In this document: piece after piece, positions 4,795 to 62,170 of the stretch | Position numbering within the stretch: position 1 is the first letter of the stretch | How the letters are laid out: every line of letters begins with the position of its first letter | The notes under the pieces: generated by a model | The model's database searches: none | Told to the model about the DNA's origin: nothing | The model's input: the letters and a program-made list of their open reading frames with translations, nothing else | From: an uncultured Bacteroidales bacterium | Lineage (GTDB): Bacteria; Bacteroidota; Bacteroidia; Bacteroidales; Paludibacteraceae | Direction of reading: 5' to 3' | Assembly: GCA_946404495.1 (NCBI GenBank) | Contig: CAMJDT010000005.1 | Coordinates: 1-64,000, forward strand | DNA: 64,000 nucleotides | Translations under genes and position numbers: made by a program

Positions 4795-5626
4795 GTTGCG
4801 CGCACAGTGCGAAGCGATGCAGGCACGCGGAGAGCGGGTGCCGAAGATGGCGGTGGTGTTGGTAGGCGACGACGAAGCGAGCGCCCTCTACGTACAGCAT
4901 AAGCTGGACGCCTGCCTAAGCGTCGGTATCGAGGCGGAGTGTATCCACCTCTCGGGCGAGACCTCCGAGTCGGCGCTGATCGATATCGTGGAGCGCCTGA
5001 ATGCGGATACGAGCATCGACGGCTACCTGGTACAACTGCCGCTGCCGAAGCATATATCGGAGGGTCGCGTGCTGGAGAGGATCAGTTGGCGGAAAGATGT
5101 GGACGGCCTGACGGCGGAGAATATCGGCCGAAGTGTATTGGGCAAGACCGCTATCGAGAGCGCGACACCGCGCGGCATACGCGAACTGATGGCCCGCTAC
5201 GGTATCACGACCGAAGGCAAACATATCGTCGTGGTAGAACGCGATACGGAGGACGGCGAGGCGAGTCTATTGCTGCCCAACGTAGTGGATAAACCGCTGG
5301 CGAGCCTGATGCTGCTGAACTCGCTGGAGAGGAATGCTACGGTCAGCCTCTGTCACGCCGGCAGTCCGAACCTCAAGGAGATGTGCCGAACGGCCGATAT
5401 ACTCATCGTCGCAGCCAGCCGCCCGGGACTGATCAAGGGCGACATGGTAAAAGAGGGCGCCGTCATCATCGATGTAGGCATGACGCGCATCAACGGACAG
5501 ATGCACGGCGACGTGGATAGAGAGAGCGTAGCGGAAAAATGCGGCTATCTCTCGCCCGTACCGGGTGGAGTAGGGCCGATGACGGTGGCAGCGCTGCTGA
5601 TGAACATCGTCGAAGCGACAAAATAA
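4748..5626 (+). CDS. folD: FolD methylenetetrahydrofolate dehydrogenase/cyclohydrolase (divergent NADP loop)
   Basis: YVQHKLDAC, DGYLVQLPLPKH, KDVDGLTAENIGR, PVPGGVGPMTVA. Confidence 0.92.
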   Translation: MRVLDGKATAAAIRSELRAQCEAMQARGERVPKMAVVLVGDDEASALYVQHKLDACLSVGIEAECIHLSGETSESALIDIVERLNADTSIDGYLVQLPLPKHISEGRVLERISWRKDVDGLTAENIGRSVLGKTAIESATPRGIRELMARYGITTEGKHIVVVERDTEDGEASLLLPNVVDKPLASLMLLNSLERNATVSLCHAGSPNLKEMCRTADILIVAASRPGLIKGDMVKEGAVIIDVGMTRINGQMHGDVDRESVAEKCGYLSPVPGGVGPMTVAALLMNIVEATK

Positions 5627-13312: not shown

Positions 13313-13335
13313 CTAATTTTTAATTTTTAATTTTG
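13313..13335 (+). repeat. Heptamer array AATTTTT x2 + AATTTTG
   Basis: TAA at 13314, 13321, 13328 (three frames); TTG of GSCFA gene at 13333. Confidence 0.9.
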
Positions 13336-14127
13336 AACTTCTTCACCCCTATATCGATTCCCCGTTCCGAGTGGACAATTACGTATGACGATAAGTTGCT
13401 GCTGCTCGGTTCGTGTTTTGCGAATAACATAGCTCGCAAACTCAGGGAGTACTTTTTCCGCGTGACGGTCAATCCGACGGGTACGCTCTATAACCCCGTT
13501 TCGATTGCGCGGCATATCGATTTGATCGCCGAGCACGATGTGGCGATTATTACCTTTGGCACCGCTTGGGTGTATGTGGATAAGGCTACGGGCGAGGTAG
13601 TGGACAACTGTCAGAAGCGTCCGGCAAGCGATTTTATTCGCCGTCGAATGAGCGTAGATGAGATCGTAGAGTTGTGGCAAAGTGTCGTTGAAAAGCATGC
13701 GAATAAACGATTTGTGTTTACGGTATCTCCTATTCGTCATCTAAAAGACGGTCTGCACGAGAATCAACTATCGAAGGCAACCCTGCTGCTCGCCATTGAA
13801 AAACTGAACAATATCAACTGTCAATTGTCAACTATCAATTACTTCCCGTCCTACGAAATCCTGATGGATGAGCTGCGTGACTACCGCTTCTATGCCTCGG
13901 ATATGATGCATCCCTCCGAGACCGCAATCGACTATATTTGGGAGCGGTTTGAGAAGACCTATTTATATAAGGATGAGAACCGCGAGACAATGCGCGTCTT
14001 GCATCAGTTGTATCTCGACCGCAACCACCGGCCGCTCTATCCCGATAGCGACGACTATCGCCGCTTTCAGGCCGCGACCGAAGCCCGTGCGGATGAGCTG
14101 AGAAAACGTTATCCCTGGATAGAATAA
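13333..14127 (+). CDS. GSCFA domain-containing protein
   Basis: LLLGSCFANNI, VSPIRHLKDGLHENQLSKATLLLA, YFPSYEI, DMMHPSE. Confidence 0.92.
   Translation: MNFFTPISIPRSEWTITYDDKLLLLGSCFANNIARKLREYFFRVTVNPTGTLYNPVSIARHIDLIAEHDVAIITFGTAWVYVDKATGEVVDNCQKRPASDFIRRRMSVDEIVELWQSVVEKHANKRFVFTVSPIRHLKDGLHENQLSKATLLLAIEKLNNINCQLSTINYFPSYEILMDELRDYRFYASDMMHPSETAIDYIWERFEKTYLYKDENRETMRVLHQLYLDRNHRPLYPDSDDYRRFQAATEARADELRKRYPWIE
13805..13839 (+). repeat. Heptamer array TATCAAC/TGTCAAT embedded in GSCFA CDS
   Basis: Encodes NNINCQLSTIN in frame. Confidence 0.85.
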
Positions 14128-14183
14128 ATATCAATTATCAAATAATCGTTCCGAAAGGATAAGAATTGTCAATTATCAATTGT
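14128..14183 (+). repeat. Two short TATCAAT heptamer segments (14128-14142, 14163-14183)
   Basis: 7-bp periodicity, stop-free units. Confidence 0.75.
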
Positions 14184-14184
14184 T

Positions 14185-14862
14185 GTGACCGTACTCTACG
14201 AAGACAATCATATCATAGCCGTCAACAAGACCTGTAACGAGATCGTGCAGGGCGATAAGACGGGTGACACGCCGCTGAGCGAGACCGTCAAGGCCTATAT
14301 CAAGGACAAATACCATAAGCCCGGTGAGGTTTTCTTGGGCGTGACGCATCGTCTGGACCGTCCTACGAGCGGGGTAGTGCTCTTTGCCCGTACCTCGAAG
14401 GCGCTGACGCGGCTGAACGATATGTTCCGCTCGCACGATCAGATACGCAAAACCTATTGGGCCATCGTGCAGGGCGTACCCAAAGCCGCAGAAGCCAGAC
14501 TGGAGAACTACCTCGTAAGAAACGAGAAACTCAATAAATCCTTTATCACGCGTGCCGATACCAAGGATGCCAAACTTGCGGTACTGAGTTACCGCACGCT
14601 GGCGGTAGGGGAGCGCTACTCGCTACTGGAGATCGACCTCGAGACCGGACGGCATCATCAGATCCGCTGCCAACTCGCTGCTATCGGTTGCCCGATTAAG
14701 GGCGACCTCAAGTACGGAGCGCACCGTTCGAATCCGGACGGAGGCATCTCGCTCCACGCCCGCAGTATCCGATTCATTCATCCCGTATCCAAACAGGAGA
14801 TCACCATCGAAGCTCCCGTGCCCGACGATCCCCTATGGCATACCCTAACCACTAACCTATAA
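14185..14862 (+). CDS. RluA family pseudouridine synthase
   Basis: HRLDRPTSGVVLFARTSKA; GRHHQIR. Confidence 0.93.
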   Translation: MTVLYEDNHIIAVNKTCNEIVQGDKTGDTPLSETVKAYIKDKYHKPGEVFLGVTHRLDRPTSGVVLFARTSKALTRLNDMFRSHDQIRKTYWAIVQGVPKAAEARLENYLVRNEKLNKSFITRADTKDAKLAVLSYRTLAVGERYSLLEIDLETGRHHQIRCQLAAIGCPIKGDLKYGAHRSNPDGGISLHARSIRFIHPVSKQEITIEAPVPDDPLWHTLTTNL

Positions 14863-52222: not shown

Positions 52223-52240
52223 ATGATCAATAATGAAATA

Positions 52241-52284
52241 TTCTTTAATCTTTATTCTTTAATCTTTATTCTTTATTCTTTATT
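52241..52284 (-). repeat. Heptamer array (minus strand TAAAGAA/TAAAGAT, 6 units)
   Basis: Encodes NKE* at aroE C-terminus. Confidence 0.95.
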
Positions 52285-53004
52285 CCAAATCTTCCACGCC
52301 TCATCTGCCTGAATGAGCAGCATCTCCATTCCGTTTTTAGTCCGTGCTCCCTTTTCGCGTCCGTTACGGAGGAAGAGCGTCTCCTCGGGATTATAGATGC
52401 AGTCGAATAGCAGATGCTCCGGCGTCAGTCCTTGATAGGGTATGTCGGGACACTCCTCCGTCTTCGGCCACATGCCTACCGGCGTACAGTTGACGATCAC
52501 TTGCCACCTCTGCATATCCTCCGCCTTCAAGTCGCTGTAAGTATAAACCTTCACGCTATCTACCAACGACCAACGACCAACGACCAACGACTTACGGCTG
52601 ACCACGTCGGTCGTCAGCCCCAACTGCTGCAAGGCGTACACGACAGCTTTGGCCGCTCCACCTGTTCCGAGCACGAGTGCGTGCGTGTCGCGCGCGTGCA
52701 AAAGAGGCTGTATAGAGCGGGTAAATCCGATCCAGTCGGTGTTGTATCCGCGCGTACCTTTCACCACGTTGACCGCTCCGATCTGTTTGGCTACGGGGTC
52801 GAGTGAACTCAGGTAGGGGAGGATAGCCTCCTTGTACGGTATCGTGACGGAATAGCCGTCGCGGTCCGTAGGCAAAGCCTCCAGGGACGCTATCTCCAGC
52901 GCCTCGTATACGGCATCTGCTCCCTCGCGCGCAATCTTATCCGTAAAGTACTGCGCCGAATAGGAGTGCCCCAAGTATTTCCCTATGAGTCCGTATCGCT
53001 TCAA
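52273..53004 (-). CDS. aroE: Shikimate dehydrogenase
   Basis: GLIGKYLGHSYSAQYF; YNTDWIGF; LGTGGAAKAVVYAL; NCTPVGMWP. Confidence 0.93.
   Translation of the reverse strand: MKRYGLIGKYLGHSYSAQYFTDKIAREGADAVYEALEIASLEALPTDRDGYSVTIPYKEAILPYLSSLDPVAKQIGAVNVVKGTRGYNTDWIGFTRSIQPLLHARDTHALVLGTGGAAKAVVYALQQLGLTTDVVSRKSLVVGRWSLVDSVKVYTYSDLKAEDMQRWQVIVNCTPVGMWPKTEECPDIPYQGLTPEHLLFDCIYNPEETLFLRNGREKGARTKNGMEMLLIQADEAWKIWNKE
52563..52591 (-). repeat. Heptamer array (GTCGTTG x4) embedded in aroE
   Basis: Encodes KSLVVGRWSLV in frame. Confidence 0.93.
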
Positions 53005-53006
53005 TA

Positions 53007-53034
53007 TTCTTTAATCTTTATTCTTTAATCTTTA
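53007..53034 (-). repeat. Heptamer array TAAAGAT/TAAAGAA x4
   Basis: Contains tilS stop; aroE TTG start directly follows. Confidence 0.95.
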
Positions 53035-53758
53035 AATATGCTTCTTGCATATGTTCCGCCAGCTGTGCAATGTGTTCTATCTCCGCCTTGCTGTAATGGC
53101 TCAATTCTTCGCGAATGGCATTTCGCTTATAGCGCGTATCGCTATTCGTGGAATCCTCCACCCAATTTATACCCCGTATATCCTTCAGATAGTGGCAGAT
53201 ATAATCATGCGTTGTACATAGCAGCGGCCGTATCACTCTGCAATCACCTTTCACCTTTAATTCCGTCACCGGCCACATCCCGCACATCCCTTTCAGTCCG
53301 CAACCGCGGCGCATATGCAGTAGGATGGTCTCCGCCTGGTCGTTCATGTGGTGGGCTACCGCTACGCTCTTGCATCCTCGTTCTTCCGCCAACTCGCTGA
53401 ACCACGCATAGCGCAACTCACGGGCGGCCATCTCGATGCTCTGCTTGGTCTTGCGCGCGTACGTAATGGTATCAAAGTCCCGCACATGCACCTCTATGCC
53501 TTTCTCCATCCATTTAGGACGGATCTTCAGCCGTTCGGCCAGTTCTACTGCTGTCTGTCTCACGAACTGCTCGTCCCGATCGCTCTCCTCGCCGCGCAGG
53601 TGGAAATTACAATGTGCCACCACGCACTCATAGCCGCTCCTGAGCAACACATCCAATAGTGCGATGCTGTCTGCACCTCCGCTTACGGCCGCCAGTACGC
53701 GCTCGCCTGCGCTCAGCATCTCGTGGTCACGGATATATTTTTGCACCCTGCGTAACAC
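53018..53758 (-). CDS. tilS: tRNA(Ile)-lysidine synthase, N-terminal ATPase domain only
   Basis: AVSGGADSIALLDVL; HCNFHLRGEESDRDE; AHHMNDQAET; WVEDSTNSD. Confidence 0.93.
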   Translation of the reverse strand: MLRRVQKYIRDHEMLSAGERVLAAVSGGADSIALLDVLLRSGYECVVAHCNFHLRGEESDRDEQFVRQTAVELAERLKIRPKWMEKGIEVHVRDFDTITYARKTKQSIEMAARELRYAWFSELAEERGCKSVAVAHHMNDQAETILLHMRRGCGLKGMCGMWPVTELKVKGDCRVIRPLLCTTHDYICHYLKDIRGINWVEDSTNSDTRYKRNAIREELSHYSKAEIEHIAQLAEHMQEAYLKIKE

Positions 53759-53790
53759 CTTTCAACTTTCACCTTTCAATTTTCAATTTC
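53754..53790 (-). repeat. Heptamer array (minus strand TTGAAA / GGTGAAA)
   Basis: Contains stop of 53776 gene and GTG start of tilS. Confidence 0.92.
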
Positions 53791-54585
53791 CACAAGTCGA
53801 TTGACGATTGCATAAATGGTCAATCCCGCCGGCGAGTGGATATTCAGCTTCTGCATGATGTTCTTGCGATGCGAGATGACGGTATGCGTCGAGATGCAGA
53901 GTTTGTCGCCGATCTCTTTGTTGCTGAGCCCGTGGACCAACTCGATGAGCACCTCTTTCTCTCTTTCGCTCAGGTTCGTCTCGCCTTTCTCCGCACGCTC
54001 TTTCCGAAGCGCAGGCAGTAGGATATCGTCCTCGATGGAACAGTGTAGCGCCAACTCTTTCTCGATCTCAAATATATCCTGTAGCGCTGCATATAGCAGT
54101 CCGTTATGCCGCGGGGCGGGGTAGTATTTGATGATGAGGTTCTTGAGTTCGTTGAGTTTGGCAGCTATCTGTTCATCGTCGTGAGCGTGTTCCTGGAAAT
54201 CGCGCGCGTTCTCGTGCGCCACGTGCGTGCGCACTTCCTCTACATATTCGTCGTAGAAACGGATGATGAGTAGCGGAATCTGACTGCCTGTCTGCACGCT
54301 GCTGATGGCCTCGATGAGCTCCTGACGGATGCGGGGCAACTGGAAGTCGAGGAAGTAACGGTGAGCGTTTCTCAGGTACACCATCAGGCTCTCCACCTCG
54401 ATCCGGTCGCTGTTCGTATGATTGACCACAGCCAGAAACGTAGTGGTATGAATGCCGTTCTCGCGGCACACCTCATCGATCGTCTTGTCCTCCACACCTA
54501 ATGGCAGGCCAAACCGACTCACGATCTGCAGCGTCTCCTTCGACGACGCAATCAACTCACTTATTTTATCCTTCGCTGTATACAC
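53776..54585 (-). CDS. Hemerythrin/ScdA-like domain + LuxR-type HTH regulator
   Basis: HVAHENARDF, HCSIEDDILLPALRK; C-terminal LSEREKEVLIELVHGLSNKEIGDKLCISTHTVISHRKNIMQKL. Confidence 0.85.
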   Translation of the reverse strand: MYTAKDKISELIASSKETLQIVSRFGLPLGVEDKTIDEVCRENGIHTTTFLAVVNHTNSDRIEVESLMVYLRNAHRYFLDFQLPRIRQELIEAISSVQTGSQIPLLIIRFYDEYVEEVRTHVAHENARDFQEHAHDDEQIAAKLNELKNLIIKYYPAPRHNGLLYAALQDIFEIEKELALHCSIEDDILLPALRKERAEKGETNLSEREKEVLIELVHGLSNKEIGDKLCISTHTVISHRKNIMQKLNIHSPAGLTIYAIVNRLVEIEN

Positions 54586-54622
54586 CTTTCACTTTTCACC
54601 TTTCACTTTTCACCTTTCAACT
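54581..54622 (-). repeat. Heptamer array (minus strand GGTGAAA/AGTGAAA, 6 units)
   Basis: Contains nrdJ TGA stop and GTG start of the HTH gene. Confidence 0.95.
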
Positions 54623-57262
54623 TCCGCACTTGCTATACCCGCACTCGCGGCAATGCATGCATCCCTCCTCAAATACGAGCGGCGAACCGCAGTTGGGGCA
54701 TACCTGTCCTTGCACCACGGTACCGTCTTGTATGTATTTCTTCAGGGCGCGTTCTACACCCACTTTCCAGCTATTGATACTCTCCGAATCCATCTGCAGG
54801 CCGCTGATCATCTTGATGACCTGGTCGATCGGCATACCGTAGCGCAGCACGCCGGAGATGAGTTTGGCGTAGTTCCAGAACTCCTTGTCGAACTTATAGC
54901 TCAGTCCCTCCATCGTGGTCTTGAAGCCGCGGGCGTTGACGAACTGGAAGTCGTAGCGCTTCGTGCCGTCCTCTTGTACCACGCGGATGATCTTACCCTT
55001 CGTAACGGACTTAGGCAGCAGCAGTCCCTCTTCGTCGTCGGCCAGACCCGTGAAGATCTCGTACGGCATACCGTCCTTCAGGCCGACAAAGGCGATCCAT
55101 TTGTCCTTGTTGTTCTGGAATCGAACGACATCGCACTCCAGCTCGGCCGGACGTATCCGCACTTTGTTATCGAAGCATACGCAGTTCGTTCCTTCGCCTT
55201 TCGCCTTTTCGCCATTCGCCTTTTCGCCATTATCGCCTTTCGTCTTCTTCTTCGAGATACCCTCTAATACATTACCCCGGCTGCCGTCGCGATAGACCGT
55301 GCAACCCTTGCAACCGCATCGCCAGGCTTCCTCATAGAGTTTGCCTACCAGCTCTTCGCTCACGTCGTTAGGCAGGTTGATGGTGACGGAGATGGAGTGG
55401 TCCACCCATTTCTGAATCGCACCTTGCATCCGCACCTTGGCCAGCCAATCTACGTCATTGGCCGTAGCGTGGTAGTAGGGCGACTCCTTGACGAGCGCCT
55501 CCACCTCTTCCGTCGTATAACGATGTGCGGGGTCGTAGGTATGTCCGTTGGCGTTCATCCAGGTGATGAAATTATGGTGGAACACGATGTATTCCTCAAA
55601 GCTGTCGCCTACGTCGTCTACGTAGTCCACATGCACGTTCTTATCGTTGGGGTTGACTTTCCTGCGACGACGATAGACGGGTTGGAACACGGGTTCGATA
55701 CCGCTCGTAGTCTGCGTCATGATGCTGGTCGTGCCCGTAGGAGCGATCGTCAGGCAGGCGATGTTGCGCCGGCCTACCTTCACCATCTCTTCGTACAATG
55801 CCGGATCGGCTTCTCTCAGCCGCTGTATATAGGGATTATTCTCCTCGCGTTTGGCGTCGTAGATCTTAAAGGCGCCGCGCTCTTTGGCCATCTCTACGCT
55901 GCTGCGATAGGCGGCCAGCGCGAGGGTCTTATGTACCTCCACGCTGAATCGTGTAGCCTCGTCCGTACCGTAGGTCAGACCCATTGCGGCCAGCATATCG
56001 CCTTCCGCCGTGGTGCCTACACCCGTACGACGACCCTGCGAGGTCTTCTTCATGATCTTCTCCCACAGCTCCCGTTCTACGCGTTTGATCACATCGTCCT
56101 CGGGGTCGTTGGCGATCTTGAGTAGGATCTTATCGATCTTCTCCATCTCCAGGTCGATGATATCGTCCATCATGCGTTGGGCGTAGCCCACGTGCTTGCG
56201 GAATAGCTCCCAGTCGAACTCGGCCTCCTTGGTGAAGGGGTTCTTGACGTAGGAATAGAGGTTGATAGCCAGCAGTCTGCAGCTGTCGTACGGACACAAG
56301 GGTATCTCGCCGCAGGGATTGGTGCTGACGGTACGGTAGCCGAGGTCGGCATAGCAATCCGGCACGCTCTCGCGGATGATCGTGTCCCAAAACAGCACAC
56401 CCGGTTCGGCACTCTTCCAGGCATTGTGGATGATCTTCTTCCACAGCGCCTTGGCGTCGATCTCTTTCTTATACAACGGATTATTGGAGAAGATAGGGTA
56501 CTCCTGTTGGTATCTGCCGTCGGCAAAGACGGCTTCCATAAAATCGTCGTGTATCTTGACGCTCACGTTAGCGCCCGTTACCTTGCCTTGCTCCATCTTG
56601 GCATCGATGAAGGCCTCGCTATCGGGGTGCTTGATGCTCACGGTCAACATCAGCGCGCCGCGTCTGCCGTCCTGTGCTACCTCGCGCGTCGAGTTGCTGT
56701 AGCGCTCCATGAAGGGCACAATACCCGTACTCGTCAGCGCCGAGTTCTTCACCGGACTGCCTTTCGGACGAAGATGACTGAGGTCGTGACCTACACCGCC
56801 GCGACGTTTCATCAGTTGCACCTGCTCCTCGTCCAATTGGATGATGCCACCGTAGGAGTCTGCCTCGCTGTCCTGACCGATTACAAAGCAGTTACTCAGG
56901 CTTGCTACCTGAAAGTCATTACCTATACCCGTCATCGGACTGCCTTGCGGCACGATGTAGCGGAAGTCCTTCATCAACTCATACAGCTCCTCCTCACTCA
57001 GCGGATGACTCTCGCCTTTCGTCCTCTTGCCATATTTGGCCTCTATGCGACCGATCTCACGAGCCATGCGGTGGTGCATATCGTCGGGCGTGAGCTCATA
57101 CAGGTGCCCGTAACTGTCTTTTAATGCGTACTTGGTGCTCCAAACGCGAGCGGCTAACTCGTCTCCCCGGAAGTACGCGACCGATGCCTCTTCGGCTTCT
57201 TTCTGTGTATATGTTGTATTTTCCATATCTATATTATAGGTGTTTTCCAATCCATCTTTCAT
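54617..57262 (-). CDS. nrdJ: Adenosylcobalamin-dependent ribonucleotide reductase
   Basis: NPCGEIPLCPYDSCRL; APTGTTSIMTQTTSGIEPVF; C-terminal CPNCG...CRECGYSKCGS. Confidence 0.94.
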   Translation of the reverse strand: MKDGLENTYNIDMENTTYTQKEAEEASVAYFRGDELAARVWSTKYALKDSYGHLYELTPDDMHHRMAREIGRIEAKYGKRTKGESHPLSEEELYELMKDFRYIVPQGSPMTGIGNDFQVASLSNCFVIGQDSEADSYGGIIQLDEEQVQLMKRRGGVGHDLSHLRPKGSPVKNSALTSTGIVPFMERYSNSTREVAQDGRRGALMLTVSIKHPDSEAFIDAKMEQGKVTGANVSVKIHDDFMEAVFADGRYQQEYPIFSNNPLYKKEIDAKALWKKIIHNAWKSAEPGVLFWDTIIRESVPDCYADLGYRTVSTNPCGEIPLCPYDSCRLLAINLYSYVKNPFTKEAEFDWELFRKHVGYAQRMMDDIIDLEMEKIDKILLKIANDPEDDVIKRVERELWEKIMKKTSQGRRTGVGTTAEGDMLAAMGLTYGTDEATRFSVEVHKTLALAAYRSSVEMAKERGAFKIYDAKREENNPYIQRLREADPALYEEMVKVGRRNIACLTIAPTGTTSIMTQTTSGIEPVFQPVYRRRRKVNPNDKNVHVDYVDDVGDSFEEYIVFHHNFITWMNANGHTYDPAHRYTTEEVEALVKESPYYHATANDVDWLAKVRMQGAIQKWVDHSISVTINLPNDVSEELVGKLYEEAWRCGCKGCTVYRDGSRGNVLEGISKKKTKGDNGEKANGEKAKGEGTNCVCFDNKVRIRPAELECDVVRFQNNKDKWIAFVGLKDGMPYEIFTGLADDEEGLLLPKSVTKGKIIRVVQEDGTKRYDFQFVNARGFKTTMEGLSYKFDKEFWNYAKLISGVLRYGMPIDQVIKMISGLQMDSESINSWKVGVERALKKYIQDGTVVQGQVCPNCGSPLVFEEGCMHCRECGYSKCGS
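55193..55242 (-). repeat. 7/8-bp (15-bp) repeat array GGCGAAA(A)/GGCGAAT in nrdJ linker
   Basis: Encodes GDNGEKANGEKAKGEG. Confidence 0.88.
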
Positions 57263-61217: not shown

Positions 61218-62170
61218 GCGAACTGGAATATACGGAGCACGGCTGGAGGATGACGACCGATAAGGAGCGGCATCATCGAAGTAATCGCTGGGACTATAAG
61301 GGAGAAGGCGTTTACCATCTGACGATGACGGTAGCGGAGCGTTTCCCGCTATTTGGAGAGTTGGTCGGCGATAGTCCTGACGAGGCGCGGATAGATCTAA
61401 ATCCATTTGGTAAACGCATCGAGCGTATGTTACGCGATCTGCCGTCGTTCTATGCTTCTAAGGATATCGATATAAAAGTGCTCGCAGTACAGGTGATGCC
61501 GGATCATATACATCTGGTAATACAGGTGTTGCGACCTATGAAGCGGTCGGTCGGTGAGATTGTTCGTAGCTTCAAAAGCGCCGCGACATCGCTCTATAAA
61601 CGGGAATATGATATCATAGCAGCTAATGGCGGCAATAATGCCGCCAAATGGAACGCCTCTGTAGAGCGAGAGAATCCTATCATAGCAGCTAATGGCGGCA
61701 ATAATGCCGCCAAATGGAACGCCTCCTCAGAGCGAGAGAATCCGCCGCAGGCGGTCGTTGCATTTGCTTGCATTTTTGCGAGCATTGGCTCACTGTGGCA
61801 ATCAATACCGGCCGGATATCATGATCGATTTTTATATGAGCGAGGCCAATTGCGACATATGATCGACTATGTCCACGACAACCCCCGTCGGCTGTGGCTC
61901 AAGCGCGCCAATCCCGACCTCTTCCGTATCAAGCAGGACAAACTCATCGCTAATACCCCCTGCCTCGTATTAGGCAATATCTTCCTCGCCGAAAATCCCC
62001 AGAAGGCGGTCTTGCAATGCTCGCGCCGCATGTCGCAGGCCGAGATAGATGCCCGTAAAGCCGACTGCCTTAGCGCTGCTGCCAACGGCACCGTCTTTGT
62101 CAGCGGCGCCATCTCGGAGGGCGAGAAGCAGATCTGCCGCGCATTGCGCGAGGGGGGGGGTATCAATTGA
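61214..62170 (+). CDS. IS200-like Y1 (RAYT-type) transposase with C-terminal extension, interrupted at G9 tract
   Basis: VMPDHIHLVIQV HUH motif; GSLWQSIPAGYHDRFLYERGQLRHMIDYVHDNPRR; ATGA overlap with R-M gene. Confidence 0.85.
   Translation: MSELEYTEHGWRMTTDKERHHRSNRWDYKGEGVYHLTMTVAERFPLFGELVGDSPDEARIDLNPFGKRIERMLRDLPSFYASKDIDIKVLAVQVMPDHIHLVIQVLRPMKRSVGEIVRSFKSAATSLYKREYDIIAANGGNNAAKWNASVERENPIIAANGGNNAAKWNASSERENPPQAVVAFACIFASIGSLWQSIPAGYHDRFLYERGQLRHMIDYVHDNPRRLWLKRANPDLFRIKQDKLIANTPCLVLGNIFLAENPQKAVLQCSRRMSQAEIDARKADCLSAAANGTVFVSGAISEGEKQICRALREGGGIN
61612..61743 (+). repeat. 66-bp tandem duplication (2 copies) in transposase CDS, each with GGCGGCA-ATAA-TGCCGCC hairpin
   Basis: Near-identical copies starting 61612 and 61678. 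Confidence 0.95.

Follow-up and report, generated by a model that had tools for sequence, protein, structure and literature searches.

Seven-base repeats are over-represented in bacteria, an observation still in need of an explanation, for which one published proposal reportedly invokes polymerase slippage on a 7-nt register. Rickettsia palindromic elements are longer palindromic repeats that many unrelated proteins contain, and tolerate, as in-frame insertions. The arrays described here resemble these elements in being in frame and tolerated in unrelated proteins, but they consist of 7-bp tandem units and form no palindrome.

According to PMC4679880, heptanucleotide simple sequence repeats of prokaryotes were treated by Mrazek et al. 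(2007). The available part of PMC4679880 reports TAACTGA arrays in Beggiatoaceae, Cyanobacteria and Bacteroidetes, with just an occasional set inside a gene, near the end of a purC-like one. The present arrays have in common with the repeats in that part of the source the seven-base unit, the many dispersed and mostly short sets, the occurrence in scattered taxa including Bacteroidetes, the frequent position just before start codons and the single readable direction. Unlike the repeats covered there, several families coexist in the genome studied here, many arrays lie in frame in conserved genes, and different heptamers recur in one protein loop. A literature search on heptamer repeats and Bacteroidetes returned nothing beyond PMC4679880. 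Heptanucleotide repeats are already known; their repeated colonisation of one protein loop appears to be undescribed.

The GGGAATC and GGGGAYT arrays of Xanthomonas and Nostoc are G-rich and have been proposed to form quadruplexes (PMC4692102). The present arrays are similar to them in their heterogeneous heptamers, mostly about four units, their dispersal and their intragenic minority, whereas the TTGAYAR family is AT-rich and without G-runs. In Haemophilus influenzae, heptamer tracts lie in the hmw1A and hmw2A promoters and one, (AATTTTG)14, lies inside hmw1a; the survey criterion was at least three uninterrupted units, and the hmw tracts had 13-38 copies (PMC2651432). These are likewise seven-base tandem units near or in genes. 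However, the hmw tracts are long, perfect and strain-variable, whereas the array described below has four imperfect units and is known from one genome.

The heptamer array and its host gene

The window, i.e., the whole stretch of DNA that was analysed, comprises 64,000 nucleotides (positions 1 to 64,000 of contig CAMJDT010000005.1) of an uncultured Bacteroidales bacterium of the Paludibacteraceae. The following features were located at the GSCFA-family gene:

13314..13334, + strand: another heptamer array, (TAATTTT)x3, that extends into the TTG start of the GSCFA gene (Tandem Repeats Finder, TRF)
13333..14127, + strand: GSCFA-family gene, 264 aa, SGNH-hydrolase-like fold, TTG start (ORF, Pfam, AlphaFold2, PDB fold matches)
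13812..13839, + strand: four-unit imperfect heptamer array TATCAAC-TGTCAAT-TGTCAAC-TATCAAT (sequence letters, TRF period 7 and 14, shuffles, structure)
13900..13911, + strand: invariant D190-x-x-H193, presumed SGNH DxxH motif, 3' of the array (invariant columns)
14128..14184, + strand: intergenic TATCAAT/TGTCAAT heptamer remnants immediately 3' of the GSCFA stop codon (sequence letters)

The ORF at 13333-14127 matches the Pfam family GSCFA (PF08885) with E=4e-70. The AlphaFold2 model, built with 48 aligned relatives, is confident (pLDDT 94.8, pTM 0.91), and its best fold matches in the PDB are TesA, PatB and other GDSL/SGNH hydrolases. Invariant columns of the alignment include G26-S27-C28-F29, D190 and H193, and the protein thus has both the GSCF nucleophile block and the DxxH block of GSCFA/SGNH hydrolases. 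This is consistent with the two being the SGNH catalytic blocks, although the catalytic role is attributed to them by analogy with the SGNH family. In a protein search the close relatives belong to a rumen/gut genus of the Bacteroidales, the named ones being mostly metagenome-assembled genomes of Paludibacteraceae. The genus has two GSCFA subgroups, one including the window gene (L016-L028) and one comprising L029-L045. Following residue 62, the former lacks some 40 residues (GGxWHSxxHHGxFS region) that are present in the latter as well as in more distant relatives.

An initial annotation had placed a heptamer array within 13805-13839, inside the GSCFA gene, and four units were indeed located at 13812-13818, 13819-13825, 13826-13832 and 13833-13839. 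Both period 7 and period 14 were called for this array by TRF, and it is imperfect because all adjacent units differ. The array encodes residues 160-169 (NINCQLSTIN); the annotated peptide NNINCQLSTIN (residues 159-169) stands, as claimed, directly before YFPSYEI (170-176). In the AlphaFold2 model, a helix (141-161) is followed by a strand (168-171) leading to YFPSYEI, so that the array encodes the connector together with its edges, with residues 160-169 covering the predicted loop 162-167. As a variable loop, this connector is probably surface-exposed.

The GSCFA gene has a lag-7 self-match score of 9. When the whole gene is shuffled, this score is reached in 0.42% of Markov (dinucleotide) and 0.18% of codon shuffles; when just the loop is shuffled, it is never reached in 2000 trials. 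The locus shares two traits with prokaryotic heptanucleotide tandem repeats, namely a period 7 above chance in a genome rich in this period and a unit from a dispersed family of its own genome. Reverse-complemented, the unit is TTGAYAR, the commonest heptamer family of the genome, which bears out the annotated kinship with the intergenic TTGATAA arrays, the GSCFA array being read in the opposite, stop-free direction. Elsewhere in the window, TRF calls TTGAYAR-family arrays near 5623, 6315, 17551, 50534 and 57334.

Variation of the loop among orthologues

The loop was compared among the best-matching orthologues out of 158 matching genomes, which gave 55 distinct loops. The connector has 4-18 residues, is in frame in every case and is the most length-variable stretch of an otherwise conserved C-terminal half. 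In the nearest orthologue (genome G049, 71% identity) the loop is an unrelated INNDAAIY, 12 bp shorter and without an array. Because 12 bp is not a multiple of 7, the array cannot be described as one clean unit insertion. The annotated reading of the segment as inserted, or as having overwritten an earlier loop, is supported: it is not shared with G049, and among orthologues the region varies in sequence and length.

A lag-7 score of at least 9 was found in four of the 55 loops, and a fifth one is weaker, with a score of 8. No lag between 4 and 15 other than 7 and 14 reaches a score of 7 in any of the 55 loops. The units of the five loops differ: CAATTRT in the window (L016), CCAATAT in L006, CACCAAT and AATCAGA in L005, CAACTTT-like in L007 and CTACACG-like in the weaker L043. 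Two more species have a GGGGAGGTCGGGTGGGGT segment at this site, and sequences similar to it, with up to 3 mismatches, are present elsewhere in G015 and G049. Since differing arrays and GGGGAGGTCGGGTGGGGT segments occupy it, the GSCFA loop is a recurrent site for repeat DNA. The loop peptides are very different, as seen from NINCQLSTINY, SSISNIQYSIY, TNRQSPIY, NAYY (L008) and SSLEGRSGGVLY, and one among those listed resembles a different dispersed repeat. Different heptamers repeatedly entering one loop provide natural replicates for how arrays originate and how proteins absorb them. In L043, a second variable loop of GSCFA also contains a peptide of heptamer-like appearance, GERLAVSGER.

Several pairs of loci share identical loops (among them L005/L059, L006/L058 and L007/L060) and were considered as strain pairs. 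However, they are 100% identical over the whole shared length and are thus apparently the same genomes, so that they carry no information on copy-number variation. Internal stop codons in some matches were rejected as array frameshifts; the matches concerned belong to the longer GSCFA subgroup and mostly end near query residue 236-242, far from the loop.

Heptamer arrays in the genome and in other genes

The genome survey covers 1.53 of 2.13 Mb. In these 1.53 Mb, 149 runs of at least 12 matches were found at lag 7; other lags, multiples of 7 aside, give no more than 28, and a Markov shuffle gives none. With mismatches allowed, 267 period-7 arrays were detected and period 7 dominates the tandem repeats. 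The 267 arrays draw on just 50 of about 1170 possible units, and the five biggest families account for 214 of them. At least three tandem TTGAYAR units are present at 127 overlapping positions in the genome. Three-unit TTGAYAR arrays were detected in 52 of 295 genomes of the order (40 of 183 genera), the count of 127 being the highest; therefore, this heptamer class is patchy in the order and strongly developed in the genome of the window. The related G049 has 235 period-7 arrays per Mb, with partly different families. Within the window, a cluster of heptamer arrays (TATTCTT, ACCAACG, TCTTTAA, CTTTCAA, CACCTTT and TTCGCCT) spans about 3 kb at 52239-55246, and a 66-bp unit is present in two tandem copies with 95% matching at 61612-61743.

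ORFs were called mechanically, and the coding status of the other in-gene arrays was taken from codon usage and, for ten proteins, from Pfam. Inside such ORFs lie 59 of the 267 arrays; as ORFs make up a fraction of 92%, some of them are over-called. Besides the GSCFA array, 28 have codon-usage support on both sides, in agreement with the earlier claim that arrays land within genes. Host proteins recognised by Pfam include a class I tRNA synthetase with the domain layout of IleRS, a DNA topoisomerase, LpxB, a RadA-like protein, a MutS-domain protein and an M24 peptidase. The counterparts that could be read in G049 show mostly conserved flanks around an array segment that usually differs in sequence or length. 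For example, the array of the LpxB loop consists of AAAGGTG units in the genome of the window, while G049 has GGTTATC units there; in IleRS, both genomes have the same array, of equal length. Orthologues of LpxB and of the RadA-like protein were located across the genus. On contig 17 of G000 (14379-14451, L113), a 73-bp array of CCAATCA/CCAATAA units codes in frame for (NQSPITN)n, in an ORF with a PG_1098 ferredoxin-like/THUMP-like domain and two additional heptamer arrays.

The annotation had further held that such arrays are tolerated only in the open orientation, which is too strong. In the TTATCAA direction there is no stop codon in any frame, while the complement has a stop in every frame over three units. 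The closed direction is thus expected by construction to be missing from the middle of intact ORFs, and at three or more units the statement is nearly a tautology. Moreover, AAAGGTG-family arrays occupy genes in the stop-bearing direction. In five in-gene AAAGGTG arrays, the unit that would place TGA in frame is altered to an AAAGGTT-like unit (TTA) in 6/6 cases, compared with 1/12 for units in the other phases. The change from TGA to TTA shows how these arrays stay open; the two ratios do not form an independent test of selection, as they are conditioned on an open frame.

Origin of the array

We consider it probable, at roughly 75%, that the GSCFA array is the product of a genome-wide process generating and/or spreading heptamers and is tolerated in a permissive loop. 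The period-7 dominance, the shared families, the differing arrays at one loop, the in-frame conservation and the predicted loop location are direct observations behind this reading. A process acting throughout the genome in this Bacteroidales lineage would make and/or spread seven-base tandem repeats, and copies in coding sequence would survive only where the net change is in frame, free of stops and situated in a loop able to accommodate additional residues. The helix-strand connector of GSCFA would be such a permissive loop, filled by different heptamers in several species, apparently independently. Mutationally, the arrays could arise through slippage on a 7-nt register, through copying of other arrays or through the two together, and the encoded loop peptide would be neutral. 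A more far-reaching version, which we put forward tentatively and think rather doubtful, is that the arrays spread by sequence-specific copying that reuses few 7-base units and keep donating short in-frame peptides, so that in conserved and even essential proteins the same loops are rewritten repeatedly.

The annotation had also named the array a phase-variation candidate, and the premise is correct: a change of -7, +7, -14 or +14 bp would end the GSCFA protein at 174-181 aa, any 7-bp frameshift in the array losing D190-x-x-H193. Heptamer gain or loss would then switch the enzyme off and on as in a contingency locus, and heptanucleotide phase variation is known in H. influenzae (PMC2651432). 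However, the GSCFA array has no identical neighbouring units, whereas PMC2651432 demands at least three uninterrupted ones. In addition, none of the 55 distinct orthologous loops is out of frame, the length of the IleRS array is constant across species, and arrays of the same class lie in the IleRS, topoisomerase and LpxB genes, which are presumably essential, so that switching them off should be lethal. For these reasons, a phase-variation switch is not supported and we regard it as very unlikely. Heptamer arrays in genes should generally not be taken as such switches unless variation has been seen.

An adaptive role of the loop, in which a polar peptide was recruited to alter substrate access or partner binding of GSCFA, would fit its position in the helix-strand connector and its being the most length-variable part of the conserved C-terminal half. 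It is nevertheless unlikely, as very different peptides occupy the site, one of them resembling a different dispersed repeat, and similar arrays occur in unrelated proteins. That AT-rich codons gave a weak period-7 pattern by chance agrees with an array of just four imperfect units and with whole-gene shuffles that reach its score in 0.2-0.4% of cases. This reading is disfavoured and, in our view, extremely improbable, since the unit belongs to the heptamer family that is commonest in the genome and the same loop carries other heptamers in some other species, with no other period appearing there.

Heptamers are also present at the 5' end of the GSCFA gene. The start codon is ATG in 58/58 other aligned orthologue loci, a few of which represent the same genome twice, and TTG only in the window, where the (TAATTTT)x3 array may have taken the place of the ancestral ATG or other start. 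The TAACTGA repeats in the available part of PMC4679880 are likewise often placed just before start codons. Among orthologues, a heptamer array lies at most 60 bp 5' of the start codon in 7/49 distinct upstream regions, while shuffles predict 0.06.
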